From: a virus
Virus record (IMG/VR): IMGVR_UViG_3300027782_000272
Location: 1 to 29,480 of that record
DNA: 29,480 nucleotides
Reading direction: 5' to 3' (one strand)
In this document: in pieces, positions 4,108 to 26,485 of the stretch
Numbering within the stretch: position 1 is the stretch's first letter
How the letters are laid out: every line of letters begins with the position of its first letter
Notes under the pieces: generated by a model
Told to the model about the DNA's origin: nothing
Databases searched by the model: none
The model's input: the letters and a program-made list of their open reading frames with translations, nothing else
Translations under genes and position numbers: made by a program

Positions 4108-4111
<4 letters not shown>
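3959..4111 (-). CDS. Small membrane protein, candidate holin
   Basis: A 50-aa protein with two hydrophobic stretches, roughly residues 4-23 ([19 protein letters not shown]) and 29-45 (Ala/Val/Gly-rich), and a short charged tail (KAADAK). Small two-pass proteins of this type ahead of a cell-wall enzyme are common class II holins. Coupled by ATGA to the gene before (4108-4111) and after (3959-3962). Identity as the holin is inferred from size, topology and position. Confidence 0.55.
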
Positions 4112-4626
<515 letters not shown>

Positions 4627-5374: not shown

Positions 5375-6606
5375 TAGGCGGTGTAGTTTTGGATGATCGA
5401 CCCAGTCCACGCCGAGCCGTCGGCGATGAACGATGCAAGGTCGAATTTTGATGCCGTCGTGGTAATGGTCGGAGCGGTCCCGCCTGGCCATTTTACGCTG
5501 GTAAATGTGCCGGTGAATCCTCCTGCGCCAGTTAGGATTTTTAAAATAAAAGATTGCCCAGCCGTTGCGGTCGGCATGGTGAAAGTGCAGTTGCCTGTCA
5601 GTGTTACGGTTTGGAATGTTCCAGTTGCAAGCGATATGGTTACGGCTGTGCCGCTGTTTCCGATTGCGACCGTGGCTTCGGTGTAGCCGGTCAGTGTCGG
5701 ATTGGTGCCAAACATTGCCGCGCCCGTTCCGGTTTCATCCGTCAACGCCGCTGCTAGGTTCGCGCTGGTCGGAGTTGCTAGGAATGCTGCGACGTTTGTT
5801 CCGAGTCCGCTGATTCCGGTCGTGACGGGCAGTCCTGTGCAGTTTGTTAGCGTGCCGGTCAATGGCGTTCCGAGCGCGCCGCCGTCATAAATAAGCGTCA
5901 CGGCGCTGCCTGTGCCGTTCTTGAACTGTGGCGCTCCTGTCGTGCTTGAGAACCATGCAGACCGTCCAGCGGCAATCGTCGGCGTTGTGCCGTTTTTGGT
6001 CAAGAAATGCCCAGCCTCGGATGTGCCGGGATTGCTGAAAAAATGTCCCGTGCTTGTCGTGTTGACGGTTATGCTGATGTTACCAGCCGATGCGCCCCAT
6101 GTGAGAACTGCCGTGCCTGCGCTGTTCTTAAGGGATGCGCCTGCTGTTGCGTCGTATGCGGCAAAATTCCAAGCCTTGACGGATGCGCTAGAGTCTTGTA
6201 CTTCAATGTTGGCATTTACCCCCTGCGTGTAAATGGTTGCGTTTGCCCCATCTGTGTAAATATACGCGTTAGTTCCACTCGTATAAATTACGCCGCCTGT
6301 TGCGGTAGTGTATAAAGCACCGGCGAGAATATCTCCAAATGCAGCTCCGCCGGATGCGTCACGACGGACGATTGCGTTAGCTGTCGCAACCGATGTCGGC
6401 GTTTCCCACTCTGTGGCGTAATCGGTCGAGCTGGTTTTTTTTAAGATGTTGTTTGCGACTCCACCTGCTGCTAATCCGGCTCCGTTGGTGCCGTTTGTGC
6501 CGTCCTGAGCTTCGACAAGTGTAATCGTCACGGCTTCTTCGTTGAGCGTGGCGCTGACAACCACGTCTGGATCGTTCTCGGCAACTGTAAGTGTGATTGT
6601 GTCCAT
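5374..6606 (-). CDS. Tail fibre / adhesin-like structural protein
   Basis: A 410-aa protein rich in Gly, Ala, Thr and Ser. The first 35 residues form a small beta domain, then a short collagen-like GTNGTNGAG, then EWETPTSVATANAIVRRDASGG, wording I know from phage fibre proteins that hold repeated D-A-S-G-G type blocks. The middle repeats short beta segments (YTSGTNAYIYTDGANATIYT). The C-terminus (SVKWPGGTAPTITTTASK and a final WTGSIIQNYTA) resembles the tip domain of many fibres. It starts one base after the upstream stop and overlaps the LamG gene by TAATG. Confidence 0.8.
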   Translation of the reverse strand: MDTITLTVAENDPDVVVSATLNEEAVTITLVEAQDGTNGTNGAGLAAGGVANNILKKTSSTDYATEWETPTSVATANAIVRRDASGGAAFGDILAGALYTTATGGVIYTSGTNAYIYTDGANATIYTQGVNANIEVQDSSASVKAWNFAAYDATAGASLKNSAGTAVLTWGASAGNISITVNTTSTGHFFSNPGTSEAGHFLTKNGTTPTIAAGRSAWFSSTTGAPQFKNGTGSAVTLIYDGGALGTPLTGTLTNCTGLPVTTGISGLGTNVAAFLATPTSANLAAALTDETGTGAAMFGTNPTLTGYTEATVAIGNSGTAVTISLATGTFQTVTLTGNCTFTMPTATAGQSFILKILTGAGGFTGTFTSVKWPGGTAPTITTTASKFDLASFIADGSAWTGSIIQNYTA

Positions 6607-6607
6607 G

Positions 6608-6952
6608 TTAGGTGCGCGTCGGATCGTTCAGAATTTCAAGCGTTCCTGCTAAGTAGGTTTTAATCTTGCCAGCGACGGATGTGGTTTCGATGCTCCAATA
6701 CCAAGCGCCGACCGCTAACGTCATCGGAGTGATTGCCGTCACGGTAAAATCATAGAGATTCGCATCGTTGATTACGATTCCGGATGTGCTTGTTAGGGAC
6801 AAGCCAAGATTGCCGTCTGTGTCTCGAAACATCATTCGGACACTAGCAAGGTTGCTGTCAAAAATCGTGCCTGTTGACGAATAGACGCACGACAAGCCAT
6901 TCCAGGTGTCGCCGTAAACAACGGGTGTTAGATTAAATTTGCCGGGTCTCAT
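6608..6952 (-). CDS. Small baseplate/fibre-attachment-like protein (BppU N-terminal type)
   Basis: A 114-aa beta-rich protein. The pattern VVYGDTWNGLSC, SVRMMFRDTDG, LSLTSTSGI, then GAWYWSIETTSVAGKIKTYL and a final hydrophilic end matches the small immunoglobulin-like proteins found beside fibres, similar to BppU N-terminal domains. It probably docks a fibre to the baseplate. Overlaps the upstream gene by ATGA (6949-6952) and is followed by the fibre after one base. Role is inferred from pattern and position. Confidence 0.65.
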   Translation of the reverse strand: MRPGKFNLTPVVYGDTWNGLSCVYSSTGTIFDSNLASVRMMFRDTDGNLGLSLTSTSGIVINDANLYDFTVTAITPMTLAVGAWYWSIETTSVAGKIKTYLAGTLEILNDPTRT

Positions 6953-7803
6953 GTGGATTTGCCTAGAACGGTAACGGTTGTGTTGGTTCCTGCCGCTGTG
7001 GATGTGATCACAAGGTCGGCGGTCAATAGCGTTCCAGTTATGCCGCTGCTGTTCCAGAATTTAGACGGCGTGGTTAGAACTTGCGTGCCGTTGCCGGCCG
7101 TAGCTGATCCGCTTGTGTTGTTGATTTCCAGCGAATAAAGCGTTGCCATGCTGATTAAAGTGACGCCTTCAAAATCCTTGCCGTCTCCGTCTGTAATGCG
7201 CACGCCGGATGATACTACGCCAGCAGTCGTGTTTGCGCTTGTTGCAGCCGCGGTGATTCCAAGTCCAGCCGGAATGGCAAGATTTGTGTTAGCTTCGTTT
7301 GCGTATTTATAGCCGTTCGCATCCGACTTGCGCGTGATGATAATGTTTGCTCCTGAGCTTGTCACGGTCCAGACGGCTGCGATTGCGGTGTTTGCCGCTA
7401 ATCCTGCTGCAAGTGCCGCTGCGACAAGCGTGGCGGTGTTGCTGGCCGTTGTAAGTGGGACAACTACGGTTAGAGGTGATCCGGTTGTGGCGGTCGAAGT
7501 AAATATCAGCGAACAGTTGCCGTTTGATGTTGCTCCAGATGCCGCGACAACCGTAGCCGTTTCAACCTGCGCCGTCCCAGCCACGTATGCAGCCGATCCG
7601 GTCGCTACGCCTGATTGCAGGTCGATCGTTGCGGTTCCACCTGACGCGACAAATTCGATTCCGATTGCGTAACCGATGTCTGCTGTTGTAAATTGGACTG
7701 CTGTTTGACTTGCGCCAATTTGAACAATTCCCGTGACAAGTGCTGACGTTGCCTGTCCTTGGCAGTTGCTCCCCGTAATCGTTTGTGCCGCTGAAATTGC
7801 CAT
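6949..7803 (-). CDS. Ala/Thr-rich virion surface protein (unknown family)
   Basis: A 284-aa protein with unusually high Ala, Thr, Ser and Gly content, few charges and many short beta segments, as in phage decoration, fibre or bacterial-Ig-like proteins. It starts at an ATG only 6 bases after a TAAAAT box (see promoter at 7810-7837), with a 39-base gap from the upstream gene. It opens the adhesin block with three coupled genes behind it. No catalytic motif is visible. Confidence 0.65.
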   Translation of the reverse strand: MAISAAQTITGSNCQGQATSALVTGIVQIGASQTAVQFTTADIGYAIGIEFVASGGTATIDLQSGVATGSAAYVAGTAQVETATVVAASGATSNGNCSLIFTSTATTGSPLTVVVPLTTASNTATLVAAALAAGLAANTAIAAVWTVTSSGANIIITRKSDANGYKYANEANTNLAIPAGLGITAAATSANTTAGVVSSGVRITDGDGKDFEGVTLISMATLYSLEINNTSGSATAGNGTQVLTTPSKFWNSSGITGTLLTADLVITSTAAGTNTTVTVLGKST

Positions 7804-7809
7804 GTCGTC

Positions 7810-7837
7810 ATTTTATGTTAGATTTTGCTTAAGTCAA
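7810..7837 (-). promoter_or_regulatory. Candidate leaderless promoter E (adhesin block)
   Basis: Minus strand: TTGACT (7832-7837), 16-base spacer, TAAAAT (7810-7815), then 6 bases to the ATG at 7803. The spacer ends in the half-site TCTAACA (7816-7822), directly next to the -10. Start of transcription would fall at or within a base or two of the ATG. It lies in a real intergenic gap. Confidence 0.6.
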
Positions 7838-12419: not shown

Positions 12420-12854
12420 TTAGGTCAATGCGACTACGGTCCCGGCCGCCACGAATGGCAGGTAAACGCCGCTCATTGATCCTTCTTCGAATCCTGTTGC
12501 GGTCGGCTTAATGCTGTTGCCAGTGATGATGATGCTTGCTCCGGTTGCCGAGGCGATGCTGTCGCCAAGTCCTTCGTTAAGTCTGGTTCGGCTGTTGCTG
12601 GTTGTGTTGGCCAAAGTGATGACGCTGCCGATGTGATCGACCAGTCCAGTCCCTTTGGTTTTGATGATGCCGTCAACGCTGATGTCTTTTTTTGGATTGT
12701 AAACGGCAAGTCCGACGTCGCAGCCGATGTGATCCGGTGCCATGACGGTTTCACTAGTTCCGTCAAAACTGACAGATCCAACAAAAAGCCCGGTTGCTGT
12801 CGCATCATCCGCTAGTCCAAATTGTGCCGTGCCGTAAACTGTTGCTAAACTCAT
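12420..12854 (-). CDS. Candidate major tail (tube) protein
   Basis: A 144-aa Gly/Ala/Thr-rich beta protein with low charge (FGLADDATATGLFVGSVSF, VDGIIKTKGTGL). It sits right after the tail-terminator-like gene and before the chaperones, where siphoviruses put the tube subunit. The size fits small tube proteins. Alternatively it is a head-tail or decoration protein. The start overlaps the upstream stop (ATGA at 12851-12854). Confidence 0.55.
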   Translation of the reverse strand: MSLATVYGTAQFGLADDATATGLFVGSVSFDGTSETVMAPDHIGCDVGLAVYNPKKDISVDGIIKTKGTGLVDHIGSVITLANTTSNSRTRLNEGLGDSIASATGASIIITGNSIKPTATGFEEGSMSGVYLPFVAAGTVVALT

Positions 12855-13309
12855 CGTAGTAGTGGTTGTTGATTTGAGAGACTGGCTGTGATCGTTAAAT
12901 CGAATGTGTCAATCCTGCGCTCGTCTCTAACAGAAATGATACCAGAACTTGTTAGATTGTCAAATACCTGCAAATTGTTAGACGCGCTCATGTAATCGAT
13001 TGACATTCTATTTGCTAAAATCTCATAAAGCGCCTGGCTCATTTCCTGACTGGTTGCGTAGGTGGTGCCGTGCGATGCCGATTCCTCCGGCACGGTGTGC
13101 AGCTCGGCGGTTAGTGATACTTCCATGACGCCGAATAGCCTGACTCCGTTTTGCTCAACCATCGTCGATCCTTGGTCGATGATTACGATCAGCGGCAAAA
13201 CCACGTCATCGGTTTCTCCGTTTAGAACTACTTGCACGCCGTCGAGAACGTCGTAGGCGCGCGCTTGGTCTTCGATCCATGTCTTAAGAGCTTGTTTTAC
13301 TTGGTTCAT
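12851..13309 (-). CDS. Tail terminator-like protein (gpU / DUF3168 type)
   Basis: A 152-aa protein. The layout (N-terminal helix with VKQALKTWIEDQA; strands VQVVLNGETDDVVLPLIVI; a strand with FGVMEVSLTAELHTV; a helix SQEMSQALYEILANRM; final strands RRIDTFDLTITASL) matches tail terminator and tail-completion proteins that cap the tube at the head side. The order, between a basic neck protein and the tube candidate, agrees. ATG overlaps the upstream stop (ATGA at 13306-13309). Confidence 0.65.
   Translation of the reverse strand: MNQVKQALKTWIEDQARAYDVLDGVQVVLNGETDDVVLPLIVIIDQGSTMVEQNGVRLFGVMEVSLTAELHTVPEESASHGTTYATSQEMSQALYEILANRMSIDYMSASNNLQVFDNLTSSGIISVRDERRIDTFDLTITASLSNQQPLLR
12936..12963 (-). 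promoter_or_regulatory. Candidate promoter C inside the tail-terminator gene
   Basis: Minus strand: TTGACA (12958-12963), 16-base spacer, TATCAT (12936-12941), the best -35/-10 pair in the structural region. It shares the 15-mer TTGACAATCTAACAA with site B (18662-18689), and is followed by TTCTGTTAGAG as in B, but about 12 bases further on. It would start transcription about 75 bases before the tail-tube candidate at 12854. Half-sites at 12926-12932, 12950-12956 and 12976-12982. Confidence 0.45.
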
Positions 13310-14320: not shown

Positions 14321-14896
14321 TTAAACTCTAACAGATTCGGGGGCCGCTGTCAATGCGGCGTCATGCCGGTAAGTGCAAAGCGTTTTGTCAATGTGCAGCG
14401 ATGTTTTAATTCTTGCCCGAGCTTGTCTAGACCAGATAATATCCTCGCCGTAATTAGATTCTCCAAACTGGCAGGTTTTGACTAGTTCCCGTTTCCATAC
14501 GCAAACATGCCACGGCGCTCGAAGCGTAATTCCGTTAGGCTGAAAAGGCTCATCGCAATTATTCAGACCAAAAATGACTTTGGAAAATGCGCCGTTGTAA
14601 TAGCTGTTTTGCTCAAATGTAATTACGTCTGGGCCTTGCTGAATTGCCAACAAGATTTCCGATACGTAATCCGGTTCAATGTCGTCGTCATCGTCCACAA
14701 ATGCAATGTATTCGCCTCGTGCAATGTCTAACAAAGACTGCCGTTTTGCGCCGATTGTTCGCGTGCGGTTGTCAGCAAACGACAAATGCTCAACTGCTAA
14801 ATCATTGCTTTGTTTTGCAATCTTTTCGGACAGCTTTGAGAGTTGCTCTTTTCGGCTTGTAATCGTCGGGGTCAGGATGCTGAGTTGTATGTGCAT
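14321..14896 (-). CDS. GT2-family glycosyltransferase
   Basis: A 191-aa protein with a GT-A fold start (QLSILTPTITSR), then GAKRQSLLDIARGEYIAFVD and the metal-binding run DDDDD (residues about 71-75), followed by a conserved C-terminal acceptor region with GESNYGEDIIW (the ED that acts as base in GT2 enzymes). It uses a nucleotide sugar; the acceptor is unknown. Its first 32 codons overlap the 58-aa gene in another frame; the overlap is needed because the N-terminal beta strand is essential. Lies between capsid and tail genes, so it may glycosylate virion or host surface. Confidence 0.78.
   Translation of the reverse strand: MHIQLSILTPTITSRKEQLSKLSEKIAKQSNDLAVEHLSFADNRTRTIGAKRQSLLDIARGEYIAFVDDDDDIEPDYVSEILLAIQQGPDVITFEQNSYYNGAFSKVIFGLNNCDEPFQPNGITLRAPWHVCVWKRELVKTCQFGESNYGEDIIWSRQARARIKTSLHIDKTLCTYRHDAALTAAPESVRV
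14325..14353 (-). promoter_or_regulatory. Candidate leaderless promoter D (neck-tail genes)
   Basis: Minus strand: TTGACA (14348-14353), 17-base spacer, TAGAGT (14325-14330), then 6 bases to the ATG at 14318. The 13-mer TCTGTTAGAGTTT covering the -10 is identical to that at site B. It overlaps the 3' end of the upstream glycosyltransferase gene, so part of the sequence is also coding. The -10 is a weak match (4 of 6). Confidence 0.5.
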
Positions 14897-14978
14897 ATTT
14901 TCTAAAGATTAAGTCGTAATTCGTTCTGTATTTATCGTGGTTAACCGGTCGTGGTGTGTCTCCTTTTCCTGCGCTCAT
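14802..14978 (-). CDS. Small conserved phage protein (MSxGKGDTPRPV family)
   Basis: A 58-aa protein with the family signature MSAGKGDTPRPVNHDKYRTN followed by YDLIFRK, known from many phage genomes as a hypothetical protein. Function unknown. The start at 14978 overlaps the stop of the 741-aa gene (ATGA at 14975-14978). Its 3' half overlaps the next glycosyltransferase start by 95 bases in another frame, which is long for this window. Confidence 0.75.
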   Translation of the reverse strand: MSAGKGDTPRPVNHDKYRTNYDLIFRKYAHTTQHPDPDDYKPKRATLKAVRKDCKTKQ

Positions 14979-17200
14979 TTCCTTTTCCAGTAGTTGTTGT
15001 GCGTGATAAGCTCCCATGCGTTAGCGTCGGAATGCTCCTTGACCGCTTTTGCCACTTCGCCCCAGGTCCAGTCATGGCCGGAAAAAATACCGTCTGGTTT
15101 AACTTTTGGATACCATGCCGCTAGGTCTTTAACAACCGAATTATAATCGTGCGCGGCGTCAATCCAGATGCCGTTGATTGATCCATTTTCAAATTGCAAT
15201 GCTGCCTCTGCGCTGTCTTGGCAAATGGCGGTAATCATGCCGTCCACTTTGGCCACTTTGATGTTGTCCAGAAATTGATTCAAAATGCTTCCACCATGAT
15301 CGGCGACAATTGCCACATGTGCAGGTTGGTTTTTTTCTCCTTCCCACGTATCAACGCAAATGATTTTGACATTGTTTTTTTCTAAATCCTGCAAGCGTTG
15401 CGCAAGGTAGATAATCGACTTACCAAGCCACGATCCAACTTCAACAAACGTGTCTCCGTCTTTCAATGCCCTTGCAACATTGTCGTAATGGTCGCGGTAG
15501 TCTAGCCATCCGTGGAAGTCTTCGCTAACTGCGATTCCTTGTTCAAATCGTCGCATGGTTCCTTTTCCCATAATGTAACGGTAATCTTCGTTAGACCTAG
15601 CATAGATTGCATCCATTTCACCTTTTCCAAAAATAGGATGCAAATGTTCAAAAATAGTATCTCTAGCTTCAATAACAACTCCGTCATCATATGCTTTTTT
15701 TGTAAAGTAATCGTCGCTGTAAACGCTGAAAAATTCAGGGTGGAACATAAAGCCCTGCTGCTGGTATCGCTTGCGGGTCAGAATAGCCATGCACAACAAG
15801 TTGTCCGTTCGATGCCCGTCGCTGATTGCTAGGACCTTTGACTCGCTAGTGTCACCGATTGCGTCGATGATAATCTGATCCCAATGCATCGGAGGATTCC
15901 AGTCATCGGAAAGCTGGATCAAGATTTCACCTTGCGCTTTCTCTGCCGCTGCGTTCCATGCCGCTACGCTTCCGGCGCTGCCATTTGTAACGACGTGGTT
16001 GTGGACCGCCAATAAAGCGCCGTGCATGTCGTCGCCGTCCAGTCCGAAAATGTGCTCAATTGCGTCGGGGTTTTTAGCTTTGTTAAACCATAGCCGCCGC
16101 GCTTCGACCGCTTGCTTGCATCGGCCCCGTGTGGCGTGGATCAGTGAGATTTTTTTGCCGCTGCGAATGAAATGGTTTGTTTCGATTGCGTCGGCTTGGT
16201 CGTAAAATCCATTTGCGCGCAATGCCATTCCGTGCAGTTGGTAGCCGAGATAGCCGCTGTATTTCCTGCGAACATTCCAGGCGCTCGATCCGCCGTCTTG
16301 AGCCAGCATTGCCGTTGTAATGGCCAGCGCGTCTTTGTTGCGTCCAAGTCCGATGTAGCAAAGGCAAAGCTCACCGTAGGCCTCCTTGCGCGCAGGATCG
16401 ACCGATAGCGCTTGCAGGTTCATTTGCAATCTCATGTCCACGTTGTCGGACATTTGCCCGGCTGCGATGAAAAGCTCGTATTTCTCAGCCGTGCCGATTG
16501 TTGGATCATCGCTTTTTAGCAGGTCGCAAACGACATTTGCCGCGTCGTTAATTCTGCCGACTGCTCGAAGCGACTGGAACAAATGGAATCTATGCGAAGA
16601 TGTCGGATTTTTAATGCTTTCCAAGATTCTCAAATTGCGCTCGTCGTTGCGCTCTCTTGTTCCTTCTGGCCGGTGCAAAATCACCGCGCCGTCCACGCTG
16701 GCTATTTTTGGATCTTCTGAAAATTGCAAAAACTCATGGATTGGCGATGTCCATGCGGCGTGCTTTTTGCGGATGATTCTTTCCCGTTGTACCGTAAGCT
16801 GATCTTCGGGAACGTGATAAGCAAACTGTATGCCGTCGAAATTGTTTGGCATTAAATCAATCGTTTCACGGATGCGCTTAATTGACTCAGGATCAATCAC
16901 GTCGTCAGTGTCGGCCCACATGATAAGTTCATGCGCGGCGTTGTCAAAAGACTGCTGGCGAGCTGCTGCGAAGTTGTCAACGTGCGGCCAAGATGATTTA
17001 CTTGTCTCGTTGAAATACTCAGGTGCGATTTTTGCTCCTAGTCGTTCTGCAATTTCAATCGTTCGGTCTGGCTCTTGATTGCCGATAGCTCGAACAATTA
17101 CGATCTCATCAGCCAGCGGCTTGAAGGATTTAATAAAACGGGCAATGTAGTTTTCCACATTGCCCACGATGACGCATAAACTCAGCTTTTCATTTTTCAT
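14975..17200 (-). CDS. Glycosyltransferase-TPR-glycosyltransferase-methyltransferase fusion
   Basis: A 741-aa protein with four parts. Residues 1-150: GT2 domain starting LSLCVIVGNVENYIARFIKS, with MWADTDD (DTDD at 97-100) as metal site. Residues about 190-345: helical, TPR-like repeats. Residues about 349-550: a second GT-A-like domain beginning ISLIHATRGR, with LDGDD (387-391) and LSDDW (430-434). Residues about 570-741: class I SAM methyltransferase with FVEVGSWLGKS (585-595), CVDTWEGE and IWIDAAHDY (678-686), like Methyltransf_24. It may build and methylate a glycan on virion or host. Placed directly after the capsid gene, separated by a stem-loop. No Shine-Dalgarno. Confidence 0.85.
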   Translation of the reverse strand: MKNEKLSLCVIVGNVENYIARFIKSFKPLADEIVIVRAIGNQEPDRTIEIAERLGAKIAPEYFNETSKSSWPHVDNFAAARQQSFDNAAHELIMWADTDDVIDPESIKRIRETIDLMPNNFDGIQFAYHVPEDQLTVQRERIIRKKHAAWTSPIHEFLQFSEDPKIASVDGAVILHRPEGTRERNDERNLRILESIKNPTSSHRFHLFQSLRAVGRINDAANVVCDLLKSDDPTIGTAEKYELFIAAGQMSDNVDMRLQMNLQALSVDPARKEAYGELCLCYIGLGRNKDALAITTAMLAQDGGSSAWNVRRKYSGYLGYQLHGMALRANGFYDQADAIETNHFIRSGKKISLIHATRGRCKQAVEARRLWFNKAKNPDAIEHIFGLDGDDMHGALLAVHNHVVTNGSAGSVAAWNAAAEKAQGEILIQLSDDWNPPMHWDQIIIDAIGDTSESKVLAISDGHRTDNLLCMAILTRKRYQQQGFMFHPEFFSVYSDDYFTKKAYDDGVVIEARDTIFEHLHPIFGKGEMDAIYARSNEDYRYIMGKGTMRRFEQGIAVSEDFHGWLDYRDHYDNVARALKDGDTFVEVGSWLGKSIIYLAQRLQDLEKNNVKIICVDTWEGEKNQPAHVAIVADHGGSILNQFLDNIKVAKVDGMITAICQDSAEAALQFENGSINGIWIDAAHDYNSVVKDLAAWYPKVKPDGIFSGHDWTWGEVAKAVKEHSDANAWELITHNNYWKRK

Positions 17201-18204: not shown

Positions 18205-18654
18205 TTACTTGGTCAGTTGGGCCTGAATTTCTTTCTTATGCTTTTTGACGTAAGATGTTTTTTCAGCCGGTGAAAGGTTTTTAATGTGCTCGATGTGGTC
18301 GAACGATTGTGATCCGTTTTCGATGTCGAGCGGTTTGACGATTCCAGCCGATGCGGCAAGTGCTACGGCCTGCAATGGGATTGATGTTTCAAGCTCGGTC
18401 ACCTTGGCTTGTAGTGCATCAATGTCTAACTTGGCTTGGGCGATTGCCAGATCCTTTTCAGTCACGGCGTTTTCGGCTGTGGCTAGATCAATCTTCACAA
18501 GCGCCAATTCGGAAATGGCATTTTTGGCTTCAAGCAATTCGGCTTGATGCGCGCCAAGTTCGCTTTCGTGATTGGCAATGATGTTTTCAAGAGCGCTGAT
18601 TTTTTCAATCGACTCTTGCGCGGATGGATTTGTTAGACGGTCGAGCAAGCTCAT
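18205..18654 (-). CDS. Nested scaffold protein (internal start at Met197 of the protease)
   Basis: An in-frame ATG at 18654 gives a 149-aa product containing only the coiled-coil and basic tail. In lambda, scaffold Nu3 is likewise the C-terminal part of the protease gene, made from an internal start. Here the start is exactly 7 bases downstream of a TAGAGT box and about 30 bases from a TTGACA (promoter B), so a separate leaderless mRNA could supply scaffold in excess. No Shine-Dalgarno stands ahead. The protein is predicted, not proven. Confidence 0.55.
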   Translation of the reverse strand: MSLLDRLTNPSAQESIEKISALENIIANHESELGAHQAELLEAKNAISELALVKIDLATAENAVTEKDLAIAQAKLDIDALQAKVTELETSIPLQAVALAASAGIVKPLDIENGSQSFDHIEHIKNLSPAEKTSYVKKHKKEIQAQLTK

Positions 18655-19242
18655 GCCGGAAACTCTAACAGAATTTGTTAGATTGTCAATCATCCGGTTT
18701 GCAAAGCCTAGATCAATGCATTTTTCGGCGTTCATCCATGTTTCATCCTTCATCATTTCGCGGATATCATCGACTGGCTTGCCTGTGCGCGCTGCGTAAA
18801 TTGCCGCAATTTCTGAACTAAGTTCTTCGCACATGTTTGCCGCTTTGGATAGTTCTTTAGCATTTCCAAATAGACCCATGCTGACATCGTGAATCATCAT
18901 CCGACCAGTTGGCAGCATGATAATTTCATCGCAAGCCATGCACATGACGCTTGCCATTGACGCGGCAAGACTGACCGTAGCTGTGACGTAAACGCCTTTT
19001 GCTCGGAGCTGCATGATCTTCGAATGGATCAGGTAGCCGTCAAATACGTTTCCGCCTGGTGAATGCACATTGATGTTCAACGTGTCCACGGGTGTTTCCA
19101 TGCTGTTTGTGAATCGACCTTCCGCGTCAACAATGTTGAAAGCGTAATCAATCTCGCTCATCAGTTGCCGACGTGAATATTCGTCAATCTGATCGTCTAA
19201 TGTAAGCGACGCCGCCTTGTTTTCAATCGTTAAGAATTTCAT
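18205..19242 (-). CDS. ClpP-type prohead protease fused to scaffold
   Basis: A 345-aa protein. Residues 50-185 are a ClpP/S14-like protease: NVHSPGGNVFDGYLI, then SLAASMAS with Ser95 as nucleophile, MMIHD with His118, and KDETWM with Asp166. Residues 197-290 form a long Ala/Glu/Leu coiled coil and the end is basic (TSYVKKHKKEIQAQL), as a coat-binding tail of scaffolds. This is the lambda C/Nu3 design: the protease matures the prohead and the C-terminal scaffold shapes it. The first 20 bases overlap the portal gene end. A promoter and an in-frame Met197 inside suggest that the scaffold is also made alone. Confidence 0.85.
   Translation of the reverse strand: MKFLTIENKAASLTLDDQIDEYSRRQLMSEIDYAFNIVDAEGRFTNSMETPVDTLNINVHSPGGNVFDGYLIHSKIMQLRAKGVYVTATVSLAASMASVMCMACDEIIMLPTGRMMIHDVSMGLFGNAKELSKAANMCEELSSEIAAIYAARTGKPVDDIREMMKDETWMNAEKCIDLGFANRMIDNLTNSVRVSGMSLLDRLTNPSAQESIEKISALENIIANHESELGAHQAELLEAKNAISELALVKIDLATAENAVTEKDLAIAQAKLDIDALQAKVTELETSIPLQAVALAASAGIVKPLDIENGSQSFDHIEHIKNLSPAEKTSYVKKHKKEIQAQLTK
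18662..18689 (-). promoter_or_regulatory. Candidate leaderless promoter B, inside the protease gene
   Basis: Minus strand: TTGACA (18684-18689), 16-base spacer, TAGAGT (18662-18667), then 7 bases to the ATG at 18654. A perfect palindrome with 7-base arms, TCTAACA at 18664-18670 and TGTTAGA at 18676-18682, 5 bases apart, fills the spacer. The sequence also codes for DNLTNSVRV, so coding constraint is an alternative source of the pattern, but the spacing to Met197 is the same as at sites A, D and E. Confidence 0.5.
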
Positions 19243-20731
19243 CCTCTTTGTATGTTTGGTTTGATTTGTCGTCCATCGGCTCAGGCTCTCTCATTTCGTT
19301 TGGAGTTAGCATGGCCATTTCTCTTTCCTCGATCTCGATTTCATAACCGGATTCTTTAGATACTTCTTCGGCAACTCTGGCCGCAATCACTTTGCGCATT
19401 GCGACGCTGTGCGCGCGTTTTGTGTAAAATTCTTCTTCGGTCATGCCGCGCGCCTCCGTGATCTCGGCGGTGTTGCGTAGTCCTGCGCGCCATTCGTTGA
19501 CCTCCATAGAGCTTTCTCGGCCATCGTCAACCGATAGTCTTGGCGGTGTCGAGAACGTCCAAGCAAACGGATGGTCCAGCAAAGGCACGCGGTTTGCTTC
19601 TTGAAAGCATGAATAGGCCCAGCTGAAAGCGTTCAGGGCCGCGCGTTTCAATAGCCGCTGACGTTGCGCAACAAAGCGCCGACATTTGACGATCTCGGCC
19701 CGTGAATCCGTGCCTTGTCCTGCGCCCTTCCAAATCTGATAGGACCAGACTGGAGTTAAGCTCATCCGAATCATGCGGTCTTGGAAGTTCTCCCAAATCT
19801 CGCCGGGTGTTTCGTGTTTGACTTGCTCGATCTTGTCGCCGCTGCCTGACTGCATGTAAACGATACCAGGAGCGGGATTGTTTAGGACGAATCCGCCGTC
19901 AACGCCGGTGCCGTAAATCGTTGACGGGTCGTCTAAGTCAGGGCCGCCGGTGTCGTTAAAAACAGTCAGGTGCAAACGCGATACGATTTGTTGCCGGATG
20001 CGCTCGTCCTCGGTTGCGGCAAGGCAAGCGGTGATGTCGAGCAAGGCGTGGGCAAATGCTGGGACGCCGCGAGATTGATCGCAGAAGTCCGGATCGTAGA
20101 TGTGGATTACGTTTGCCGCATCAATGTCAATGAAGGTTGTCATGTTCTCACCGGTCAGAATGCGGTAGGCTGCTGGCCGTCCGTTGTAATACTGAATCAC
20201 CCCGTCGTTGATCTTGTAGCCTTTGTATGCTCCGGTGCTGACGGTTCGGTAGTCTCCGCAATTTCCGACCCGATGCGCTGGGACGATTTGCAACTTAGGA
20301 AAGCCATCGTTTGATTTTACTTTGACCCAGAAAATGTCGCCGTCGCGATCCAGCGCGATGCTGGTCAGCTCTAGCAATTTGTGCCAATCAAAGACGCCGC
20401 CGCGTTCGGTGCAGTTCGGATACCATGCCTTGCGCATGAATGTCGCGATTGTCTTGCCGTCTGCAAAATCCGATTCGCCGACATAGGCTGGAAGGAATGC
20501 ATCACCTACTGAATAGTCTGCTTTCTGATCGACCGCGCCCTTGATGACGCCTACGTTACTGTAAAGCCTCGATGACAAGCTACGCAAGCGCACGTTGTCC
20601 AACGGACTAACCAGCTTGTCAAAGTCGGCATTTTTGATCGGATATACAACGCCTCGAGCGCGGTTGTATTCTGCCGCGTGCATGTAGCGCTGCGGAGCGT
20701 ATGGCTGGCCGTATTCGTTTAGGATAGACAT
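19223..20731 (-). CDS. Portal protein (lambda gpB / Phage_portal_2 type)
   Basis: A 502-aa protein. The N-terminus (YMHAAEYNRARG), LRSLSSRLYSNVGVIKGAVDQKADYSVG and the block IALDRDGDIFWVKVKSNDG then IVPAHRVGN are characteristic of lambda-type portals. It forms the dodecameric ring at the packaging vertex. It follows the large terminase and the gpW-position gene, with a 2-base gap from the latter. Its end overlaps the protease start by 20 bases. Length is close to lambda gpB (533). Confidence 0.9.
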   Translation of the reverse strand: MSILNEYGQPYAPQRYMHAAEYNRARGVVYPIKNADFDKLVSPLDNVRLRSLSSRLYSNVGVIKGAVDQKADYSVGDAFLPAYVGESDFADGKTIATFMRKAWYPNCTERGGVFDWHKLLELTSIALDRDGDIFWVKVKSNDGFPKLQIVPAHRVGNCGDYRTVSTGAYKGYKINDGVIQYYNGRPAAYRILTGENMTTFIDIDAANVIHIYDPDFCDQSRGVPAFAHALLDITACLAATEDERIRQQIVSRLHLTVFNDTGGPDLDDPSTIYGTGVDGGFVLNNPAPGIVYMQSGSGDKIEQVKHETPGEIWENFQDRMIRMSLTPVWSYQIWKGAGQGTDSRAEIVKCRRFVAQRQRLLKRAALNAFSWAYSCFQEANRVPLLDHPFAWTFSTPPRLSVDDGRESSMEVNEWRAGLRNTAEITEARGMTEEEFYTKRAHSVAMRKVIAARVAEEVSKESGYEIEIEEREMAMLTPNEMREPEPMDDKSNQTYKEDEILND

Positions 20732-20733
20732 AA

Positions 20734-21012
20734 TTAGAAAACGGTTGTCGAAGTTGACCGCAAAGCGCCGCCATTATCATCGAATCGTAAAATGATGGAC
20801 AGCATAGCCAAGCGCTGATCCTGTGTCATACCCTTGCCGTCCGCGACAAAGCTGTTTCCATTGCTGTTGCCTTGAATGATTTTCATTCCGGCGCTTGGAT
20901 CGCTGGCAATTAAGAGCGCCAATGATGCAGCTTCGGCTCGGATTTGTGCAAGCGCTTGCTCGTTGTTTTTTAGGATGTTGTAAATCCTGCGCGCTTGGTC
21001 ATAGACGGCCAT
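20734..21012 (-). CDS. Small protein in the gpW position
   Basis: A 92-aa protein between large terminase and portal. The N-terminal helix (YDQARRIYNILKNNEQALAQ) and a short beta part after GMKIIQGNSNGNSFVADGKG with a MTQDQRLAML helix resemble the helix-hairpin-helix layout of gpW, including the typical MTQ-x-x-R turn. gpW fills the head-tail connector. It begins 7 bases after a TAACAT box (promoter A). Identity is from position and weak resemblance. Confidence 0.55.
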   Translation of the reverse strand: MAVYDQARRIYNILKNNEQALAQIRAEAASLALLIASDPSAGMKIIQGNSNGNSFVADGKGMTQDQRLAMLSIILRFDDNGGALRSTSTTVF

Positions 21013-21019
21013 GCCGAAT

Positions 21020-21048
21020 ATGTTAGACCCACTCTAACAGATTGTCAA
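21020..21048 (-). promoter_or_regulatory. Candidate leaderless promoter A with palindromic operator
   Basis: Minus strand: TTGACA (21043-21048), 17-base spacer, TAACAT (21020-21025), then 7 bases to the ATG at 21012. A perfect palindrome, TGTTAGA (21021-21027 on plus) and TCTAACA (21033-21039), 5 bases apart, covers the spacer and the -10. This is the one member of the family lying wholly in noncoding DNA (21013-21084) with a full palindrome, so its structure is not due to codons. Confidence 0.65.
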
Positions 21049-24974: not shown

Positions 24975-25280
24975 TTAAAAAATTACTGGCCATTTATACC
25001 CCGCTCTCCAGTCGCGGTTTGTGCTATGCGTTTCCTGCCTTGCCGCGCCTCGCCGAGCCGCGCCGTGCCTCGCCTGCCTTGCCAAGCCGCGCCTCGCCGG
25101 GCCTAGCCTCGCCTGCGTTGCCACGCCGAGCCTAGCCTTGCCGTGCCCGGCCTTGCCATGCCACGCCTGCGTTGCCTCGCCTTGCCACGCCGGGCGCATC
25201 CTAGCCTGCCTTGCCTTGCCCTGCCCAGCCTTGCCCTGCCCAGCCTGCGTTGCAATTTGTGCTTGTGCTTGTGCTTGCAT
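24975..25280 (-). CDS. Low-complexity basic protein encoded by the GCCNN array
   Basis: A 101-aa ORF. It starts MQAQAQAQIATQAGQGKAG, continues as Ala/Gly/Arg/Lys/Gln pseudo-repeats of five residues (GKAGQ, GKARQ and so on; the 5-base unit repeats in phase every five codons) and ends with an ordinary tail, NRDWRAGYKWPVIF, and a stop 17 bases before the next ATG. The normal tail and the gap-free fit support translation, but such arrays keep several frames open by chance. If made, it is very basic and would bind nucleic acid. A longer reading from a TTG at 25325 overlaps the preceding stop. Confidence 0.4.
   Translation of the reverse strand: MQAQAQAQIATQAGQGKAGQGKARQARMRPAWQGEATQAWHGKAGHGKARLGVATQARLGPARRGLARQARHGAARRGAARQETHSTNRDWRAGYKWPVIF
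25031..25252. repeat. Degenerate pentanucleotide array (GCCNN)n
   Basis: About 220 bases made almost entirely of 5-base units GCCNN on plus (GGCNN on minus), with NN varied and a few 4- or 9-base irregular units. The segment GCCTGCGTT recurs at 25111-25119, 25165-25173 and 25243-25251. It has far more C on plus than the surroundings. A short GCTTGT-type hexanucleotide run follows at 25258-25279. It is unlike any other part of the window except the Pro-Glu tract. Confidence 0.92.
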
Positions 25281-25288
25281 TGTCGTTT

Positions 25289-25310
25289 CCCGCTGATTAC
25301 CCGCAGCGGG
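25289..25310. promoter_or_regulatory. Stem-loop upstream of the repeat ORF
   Basis: Inverted repeat CCCGCTG (25289-25295) and CAGCGGG (25304-25310) with an 8-base loop, 9 bases before the ATG at 25280. A longer alternative pairing (TTTCCCG with CGGGAAA, 25286-25292 and 25312-25318) competes. No T run follows, so it may be a translational control hairpin rather than a terminator. Confidence 0.55.
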
Positions 25311-25321
25311 ACGGGAAATTG

Positions 25322-25957
25322 TCAATCTAGTCGAAATGTCCCCCAGCCCATTCCTGCGCTCATCTTGCTGTCTGGCCTGCCCTCGCCAATTCCGACTTGC
25401 GCGCCGACTCTTGTCATTAGGTTTGCGGCGTCTGTTGCGCTGAACTGGTCTGCGTCGTATTGAACTTTAACCATTGCCGACCACGGCCAAAATTTAGCTC
25501 GAACGCGCAAATCGCAAACGCCGGTCGCATTGCGAGCGTGCATAAGATGCGGTTCTGGTTTGCCGTCAATTTTGATCAATGGCACGCCGTCCACTTTATC
25601 GAATCCGTCCGGCAAAATAAACACTGACATTTTGGCTAGCGTCATTTTAAATCCGACCAATCTGCAAGCCGAGATCATTGCGTTTCTGAATGCCGATGCC
25701 GGGATGCCGTTAAATCCGCAATCGCTGACGTGTTGCGCTTGCCGAAAGTCCTCATCGAAGTCGCGCGCTTCTTTTGCTTTTTTCTTGTTGGCTTGGCTTC
25801 CGGCTTCGTGCTTTGCTTTCATCGCATTGATTGCTTTTTCCGAAAAGCGCAACTGAATGTATGGCGCCGTGCCTATTATTTTAAACTCAGCGGTATGGAT
25901 TTTTGGCGCTGTAATTTGCACCGTTTCTACATTATTTTTTTCATCTGTTTTTTTCAT
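25322..25957 (-). CDS. Unrecognised 211-aa phage protein (possible RAMP-like fold)
   Basis: A 211-aa protein. Beta segments early (AEFKIIGTAPYIQLRF), a Lys-rich linker (residues about 48-62), then GIPASAFRNAMISACRLVGF, strand-helix elements, and a C-terminal Gly-rich loop QVGIGEGRPDSKMSAGMGWG. The helix-then-strand order with a late Gly loop recalls RAMP/Cas7-like RNA-binding proteins, but no catalytic residues can be named and the match is only impressionistic. It starts after a 44-base CA-rich leader with no Shine-Dalgarno and is followed by the repeat ORF. Confidence 0.6.
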   Translation of the reverse strand: MKKTDEKNNVETVQITAPKIHTAEFKIIGTAPYIQLRFSEKAINAMKAKHEAGSQANKKKAKEARDFDEDFRQAQHVSDCGFNGIPASAFRNAMISACRLVGFKMTLAKMSVFILPDGFDKVDGVPLIKIDGKPEPHLMHARNATGVCDLRVRAKFWPWSAMVKVQYDADQFSATDAANLMTRVGAQVGIGEGRPDSKMSAGMGWGTFRLD

Positions 25958-26175: not shown

Positions 26176-26213
26176 TTACTATCTCTTTGATACTTGTAAA
26201 TATATTTTTTCAA
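26176..26213 (-). promoter_or_regulatory. Candidate promoter F with A-rich element and inverted repeat
   Basis: Minus strand: the 26-base A-rich element (26188-26213; TTGAAAAAA, ATATTTAC, TATCA) shared with 1602-1627. TTTACA in it serves as -35, then 16 bases, TAAGAT as -10 ending at about 26173, then 6 bases to the ATG at 26166. A small inverted repeat GTATC / GATAC (13-base spacer) lies in the spacer. The geometry again predicts a leaderless mRNA. The element overlaps the stop of the upstream gene. Confidence 0.55.
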
Positions 26214-26485
26214 TTATTTTCATCCGGCCTGATCCCGGTTAATTTAGCCAAGACCGCCGCGATCTGCTGTGCTTGCCCGACCTTAGCCACGTTGTGCATA
26301 ACGCTGGCGTGATTGACATGGAACACGTCGGCAATGCGCTGCAAGGCCCATCCGGACTGTCTAAGCATGTATTGGGCCAAAGCGCGCGCATCGGCGATGT
26401 GTTGGATACGCGACTGACCCATGATCTGCTCGGGCGTGCAGCTCATTTCGGTTGCGATTGTTTCGATTAGTGTTTTCGTTTTCAT
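26210..26485 (-). CDS. Stand-alone DnaA domain IV-like DNA-binding protein (2)
   Basis: A 91-aa protein nearly all of which is DnaA domain IV-like: CTPEQIMGQSRIQHIADARA, LAQYMLRQSGWALQRIADVF and NHASVMHNVAKVGQ. The last piece matches the D-H-T-T-V-L-H-A recognition block of DnaA (N-H-A-S-V-M-H-N). There is no ATPase domain. It can be expected to bind DnaA-box-like DNA, perhaps competing with host DnaA or acting as a phage regulator. Start overlaps the preceding stop (ATGA at 26482-26485). Confidence 0.7.
   Translation of the reverse strand: MKTKTLIETIATEMSCTPEQIMGQSRIQHIADARALAQYMLRQSGWALQRIADVFHVNHASVMHNVAKVGQAQQIAAVLAKLTGIRPDENN

Follow-up and report, generated by a model that had tools for sequence, protein, structure and literature searches.

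Predicted leaderless late promoters and a lineage-specific 7-mer in an uncultured phage and its relatives

In phage lambda, the scaffold Nu3 starts at an in-frame internal ATG of gene C and corresponds to the C-terminal part of the head protease which that gene encodes. The Arc operator has arms in the spacing TAGA-N5-TCTA, and the late or structural promoter sets of phages of 30-45 kb consist of several similar promoters across one late operon. In M. tuberculosis, the promoter -10 is a TANNNT whose centre lies 7-12 bases upstream of the start site, and many of these promoters are leaderless (PMC3898074). We found no description in the literature of phage promoters such as those proposed here. 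Like the leaderless promoters of M. tuberculosis, our sites have a TANNNT centred about 9 bases before an ATG start with no Shine-Dalgarno sequence, but the phage differs in its strict TTGACA -35, constant distance, restriction to a few late genes and lineage-specific 7-mer, and its start points are predicted. As in the 30-45 kb phages, several similar sites lie across one late operon, whereas here each is set on a start codon and the signal is common to about 50 diverged phages, in two registers. The conserved in-frame internal start of a nested scaffold recalls lambda C/Nu3, although in this case a promoter-like site within the protease gene precedes it. Finally, one site (A) has arms in the order TAGA-N5-TCTA between the -35 and -10, as in operators of the Arc/Mnt type, but this form is limited to that site in the window and its closest relatives, and no ribbon-helix-helix protein was established.

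The window, i.e. the whole stretch of DNA analysed, spans 29,480 bases and constitutes a single-contig virus record of IMG/VR; all of its assignable genes (terminase, portal, head protease, capsid and tape measure) are carried on the minus strand. Four late-gene starts are preceded by the same frame, in the order TTGAC[AT], 16-17 bases, TAnnnT, 6-7 bases and ATG (sites A, B, C and E), and a fifth site (D) has the first two elements at the same spacing. The -35 is TTGACA at A-D and TTGACT at E, and a TAnnnT -10 stands at promoter spacing (16 or 17 bases) at all five. The strict pattern matches the window exactly four times, each time on the coding strand, compared with 0.2 expected, and a promoter scan of 19.5 kb that was blind to this finding placed A-E among its six best sites, again all on the coding strand.

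Table 1. Predicted promoters and the late genes that they precede (minus strand; each promoter frame begins at its higher coordinate)
Feature	Coordinates	Strand	Composition or assignment	7-mer copies	Context
Predicted promoter A	21020..21048	minus	TTGACA (21043-21048), 17-base spacer, TAACAT (21020-21025), 7 bases, ATG 21012	21033-21039, 21021-21027	-10 contained in 7-mer (TC-TAACAT)
Predicted promoter B	18662..18689	minus	TTGACA (18684-18689), 16-base spacer, TAGAGT (18662-18667), 7 bases, internal ATG 18654	18676-18682, 18664-18670	TG precedes -10; inside head-protease gene, ATG in frame
Predicted promoter C	14325..14353	minus	TTGACA (14348-14353), 17-base spacer, TG-T-TAGAGT (-10 14325-14330), 6 bases, ATG 14318	14327-14333 (single)	
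Promoter-like site D	12936..12963	minus	TTGACA (12958-12963), 16 bases, TATCAT (12936-12941)	12976-12982, 12950-12956, 12926-12932 (flanking)	Inside 152-aa gene, about 80 bases ahead of next ATG (12854)
Predicted promoter E	7810..7837	minus	TTGACT (7832-7837), 16 bases, TAAAAT (7810-7815), 6 bases, ATG 7803	7816-7822	7-mer adjoins -10
92-aa ORF	20734..21012	minus	No family match in PHROGs		Downstream of A, between terminase and portal; position of head-tail joining protein
Head maturation protease gene, 345 aa	18205..19242	minus	PHROG head maturation protease, E=8.5e-52		
Nested in-frame ORF, 149 aa, probable scaffold	18205..18654	minus			Conserved start ATG
Late gene, 110 aa	13986..14318	minus	52 homologues, majority with TTGACA box		Downstream of C
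144-aa gene, probable major tail protein	12420..12854	minus	No PHROG match; identity from gene order only		Downstream of D
284-aa virion-type gene	6949..7803	minus	No PHROG match		Downstream of E

In leaderless genes 5-8 bases are expected between the end of the -10 and the start codon, and the distances at A, B, C and E are 7, 7, 6 and 6 bases respectively, whereas that at D is far longer. With such an arrangement transcription would be expected to start on or next to the start codon, so that the mRNAs of A, B, C and E would be leaderless. Shine-Dalgarno-like tetramers precede 4 of the 46 genes of the phage, compared with 4.4 expected at random positions, which fits initiation free of Shine-Dalgarno sequences, and none was found at A, B, C or E. 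We consider it reasonably probable that A, B, C and E are late promoters of leaderless genes and D one with a leader, and that the 7-mer TGTTAGA/TCTAACA is a lineage-specific element of the -10 region and spacer. The activity of these predicted promoters, their start points and the form of polymerase reading them we infer. At A and E the element would be TCTAACA, lying inside the -10 or immediately upstream of it, and B and C would use the 7-mer as an extended -10, TG-T-TAGAGT (TAGACT in relatives). A further TCTAAC, next to the -35 at B, D and the A of relatives, may contact RNA polymerase or a regulator. Read as late leaderless promoters, the sites account for the spacing, the -10, the missing Shine-Dalgarno sequences and the nested scaffold start in this lineage. 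Three findings stand against a plain promoter reading: the TAnnnT -10 is often missing in diverged relatives though TTGACA stays before the same genes, TTGACA is only 13-17 bases from the ATG in many relatives, and a -10 role gives no account of the TCTAAC copies that adjoin the -35 at A, B and D.

Promoter B would give the scaffold part of the head-protease gene a transcript of its own. The nested ATG is kept in all close homologues and in most homologues of 32-42% identity, and the 149-aa ORF is the probable scaffold part of the protease. In addition, B (18689-18664) and D (12963-12926) share the stretch TTGACAATCTAACAA[AG]TTCTG on the minus strand, read in one and the same frame (DNLT[NS]S) although the two proteins are unrelated; at D a further 12 bases come ahead of GTTAGA.

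To follow these sites in close relatives, we compared 14 loci at 72-99% protein identity together with five longer contigs. The strict pattern found A, B, C and E in every relative contig covering them, compared with 0.05-0.2 matches expected per contig, and the sole further match was on the opposite strand of L044. The first-pass annotation had offered a 'repeated promoter element' as one reading of the 7-mer, and this part is borne out, as a fixed promoter geometry before late genes is conserved in every close relative. In an alignment of 14 sites, no column was invariant except those of TTGAC and the final T of the -10. Site A is kept in L003, L004-L015, L021 and L039-L045 with the same distance (30) from TTGACA to ATG, and E reads TTGACA-17-TAAAAT in L048-L050, TTGACA being the form at E in most relatives. 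In the intermediate relative L072, C reads TTGACT-16-TAGGAT-6-ATG and the 7-mer is absent.

The palindromes are kept far less faithfully. At A, one arm is mutated in L002, a near-identical relative; relatives of 80% identity or less have a different arrangement, and in most relatives the palindrome is replaced by TGTTAGA-AA-TTGACAA-TCTAAC-N8-TCTAACAT. At B the arms TCTAAC/GTTAGA are kept in relatives, L008 excepted, but the third base of codon 189, which is the seventh base of one arm, varies freely, so that the conserved word at B is TCTAAC and not the full palindrome. Synonymous difference over the nine codons of B was 0.09 compared with 0.35 expected (P=5e-5), the neighbouring codons being also somewhat low, and at D it was 0.07 compared with 0.28 (P=2e-4). 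No enrichment of the 7-mer was found outside the lineage of the window; the 7-mer belongs to that lineage only, and what is conserved among the close relatives is the frame TTGAC[AT]/TAnnnT/ATG.

An exact search returned the 12 copies of the 7-mer (either strand) counted previously, at the positions given then and confined to the stretch from 6.9 to 21.1 kb. Dinucleotide shuffles gave 2.26 +/- 1.59 copies (0 of 100 reached 12) and synonymous-codon shuffles, which keep the non-coding copies fixed, 5.1 +/- 1.4 (0 of 1000). With words of low-complexity or periodic stretches set aside, it is the best of all 7-mers, with a Markov P of 7.5e-6, which becomes about 0.05 once corrected for about 7000 words. 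By itself the count is borderline, and the case is carried by conservation. Neither did codon-preserving shuffles match the count nor was the motif absent outside coding regions in relatives, the two outcomes that had been named as telling against it. The low-complexity GGCAAGGCAAGGC-like repeats at 24975-25325, reading GQGKAGQGKA / ARQARLG, and the PEPEPEP region at 4108-4626 compete with the 7-mer in these statistics.

Both of the 19-base 7-5-7 palindromes reported (21021-21039 and 18664-18682) are exact. However, they had been taken as one type, and their arms are swapped, TGTTAGA-N5-TCTAACA in one and TCTAACA-N5-TGTTAGA in the other; being inside-out to each other, they are not one dyad occurring twice, and a dimeric protein would see different sites. 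They do fill the spacer between -35 and -10, as described, but also overlap the -10 (18662-18667 and 21020-21025). Similarly, of the two single half-sites said to abut the -10, that at 7816-7822 does so, but that at 14327-14333 overlaps it (TG-T-TAGAGT).

Homologues of five late genes were then traced via IMG/VR and Verrucomicrobia phage P8625, giving 197 gene instances in about 55 records. The distance from TTGAC[AT] to ATG was 13-17 bases in 70, 26-31 in 81 and 18-25 in only 2, so that 151 of the 197 genes have the box in one of two registers, although the records of similar phages are not independent and these counts overstate the number of separate events. One hundred permuted hexamers gave a mean of 0.8 per class, and the largest control at 26-31 bases, TGACAT with 23, overlaps the box itself. 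The box is absent from capsid, portal and terminase genes, one lineage excepted. The register of one gene differs between lineages, and both registers occur in L083, L116-L119, L126 and L136; further examples of the two registers are seen in L075, L078, L084, L090 and P8625 (L102). A -10 and a start cannot both be fitted ahead of the ATG within 13-17 bases, so TTGACA cannot be the -35 of the genes in that class, and across the family it may share a function other than that of a plain -35; an RNA-level signal or a different polymerase form is possible in the wider family.

The sole cultured match to the capsid protein is that of P8625 (NC_029047.1), at 26% identity. In P8625, TTGACA occurs at four sites (4637, 5412, 10736 and 15558), each 29-30 bases from an ATG, and its Shine-Dalgarno sequences are not above random. 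It thus resembles the window phage in carrying TTGACA before four genes free of Shine-Dalgarno sequences, but has GTATCC/GGATAC in place of TGTTAGA/TCTAACA, the spacers at 5412 and 10736 containing the inverted repeat GTATCC-N7-GGATAC and that at 15558 a degenerate copy. Promoters are not discussed in the P8625 paper. No DNA-level relatives were found among cultured phages, nor host-genome matches by terminase. Two MAG contigs named Acidobacteria match the E protein, of which one, L107 (JAPKZA010000114.1, 609-1502; Acidobacteria-binned, Lac Pavin), is a small contig that has site E intact and an E protein 83% identical; it either points to a host or is a phage contig placed in the wrong bin. 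Phages with this signal possibly infect Verrucomicrobia.

A broader proposal, which we rate at somewhat less than an even chance, is that a phage family free of Shine-Dalgarno sequences uses one signal, TTTGAC[AT], for the same five late genes, at 13-17 or 26-31 bases from the ATG, with the register switched in evolution and an undescribed factor or polymerase form reading both; each lineage would have its own secondary word (TCTAAC/GTTAGA here, GTATCC/GGATAC in P8625, TTCGCC or CCATAG elsewhere). One group of relatives has TTGAC[AT]TTCGCC. If the four sites of the window are leaderless late promoters, they would amount to a compact rule for structural-gene expression free of Shine-Dalgarno sequences in uncultured phages, one that also gives a nested scaffold its own transcript. 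The two-register TTGACA box is a strong, countable signal, carried by a cultured phage, and offers a means of recognising where late genes truly start in many metagenomic phages.

Searches for a polymerase of this kind gave nothing in its favour. A single-subunit (T7-type) RNA polymerase (PF00940) had no match in 25 records, of which most are fragments and for which the control genomes were also silent; candidate matches for a conserved phage sigma-region-4 protein were unrelated helix-turn-helix proteins, and no polymerase or sigma gene supporting a different polymerase form was found in the phages searched.

In the 13-17 class, TTTGACA is accompanied by a GC-rich stretch of 6 bases and, at 2-4 bases from the ATG, by a CCATAG-like box (L016, L060, L065, L084, L088, L090, L091, L093, L096 and L099), an arrangement that resembles a single-subunit polymerase promoter in length. 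CCATAG could be read as stop codons of upstream genes in only 1 of 19 cases, and a later start codon 15 bases on was rejected by reading, as the codons there are not starts.

It is less likely that a phage late activator or repressor binds the TGTTAGA/TCTAACA half-sites in the spacer and -10 region, over the promoters, the operator reading that had been put forward initially, and we regard this as unlikely overall. Half-sites do occur beyond what a -10 needs: TCTAACA stands upstream of the -10 at E, and B, D and the A of relatives have TTGACAATCTAAC. It is these last TCTAAC copies, next to the -35, that make the strongest remaining case for a bound regulator, and they leave room for a binding protein. 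Moreover, two of the four TTGACA sites of P8625 carry another inverted repeat at the corresponding position and a third a degenerate copy, a pattern that a cognate regulator of drifting specificity would be expected to leave. Against this, the orientation and spacing of the arms vary among sites, C and E (14.3 and 7.8 kb) have a single arm, so that the same palindrome is not found at each promoter, the dyad at A is not kept in L002 or in relatives of 80% identity or less, and most other lineages share no palindrome; one shared dyad operator can be rejected on these grounds. Nor was a cognate protein identified, although the phage encodes candidates. The regulator suggested at 26210-26485 (minus, 91 aa) does have a DNA-binding domain (Bac_DnaA_C, E=1.4e-12), but of replication type, a stand-alone DnaA domain IV, and the 1139-1318 protein (59 residues, conserved in relatives) may or may not have a ribbon-helix-helix fold, its predicted model being all-helical with a pTM of 0.43.

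We think it improbable that UUGACA, 13-17 or 26-31 bases before AUG, is an RNA-level translation or processing signal in these Shine-Dalgarno-free phages. The same genes, and one phage, do show both registers, this phage and P8625 are both without Shine-Dalgarno signals, and hairpins adjoin the ATG in some 26-31 spacers, mostly before the probable major tail gene. However, TAnnnT stands at promoter spacing at all four sites of this lineage, UUGACA has no known complementary partner, and hairpins between TTGACA and ATG are not general, reaching P<=0.05 in only 16% of spacers, and were rejected as a rule. Perfect hairpins of differing sequence (e.g. AAGTTTGAACCTTCAAACTT) lie directly before the ATG at L083:4778, in L119 and at L094:4625, upstream of the 123-124 aa tail gene.

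Pure chance with codon usage, whereby Leu-Leu-Asp (TTG-TTA-GAY) or Leu-Thr (CTA-ACA) codons produce the 7-mer, as they do in the coding copies at 14733, 6932 and 18637 and several in relatives, might be entertained given the borderline word count, but is excluded for practical purposes, since position, geometry and synonymous bases are conserved at sites A-E.

The window also has a strong promoter-like TTGACA-16-TATCAT without the 7-mer at 16947-16920 (minus), within a 741-aa gene (14975-17200, minus) between the capsid and tail genes. The first two parts of its product match glycosyltransferase families and its C-terminus a family named as DNA methyltransferase.
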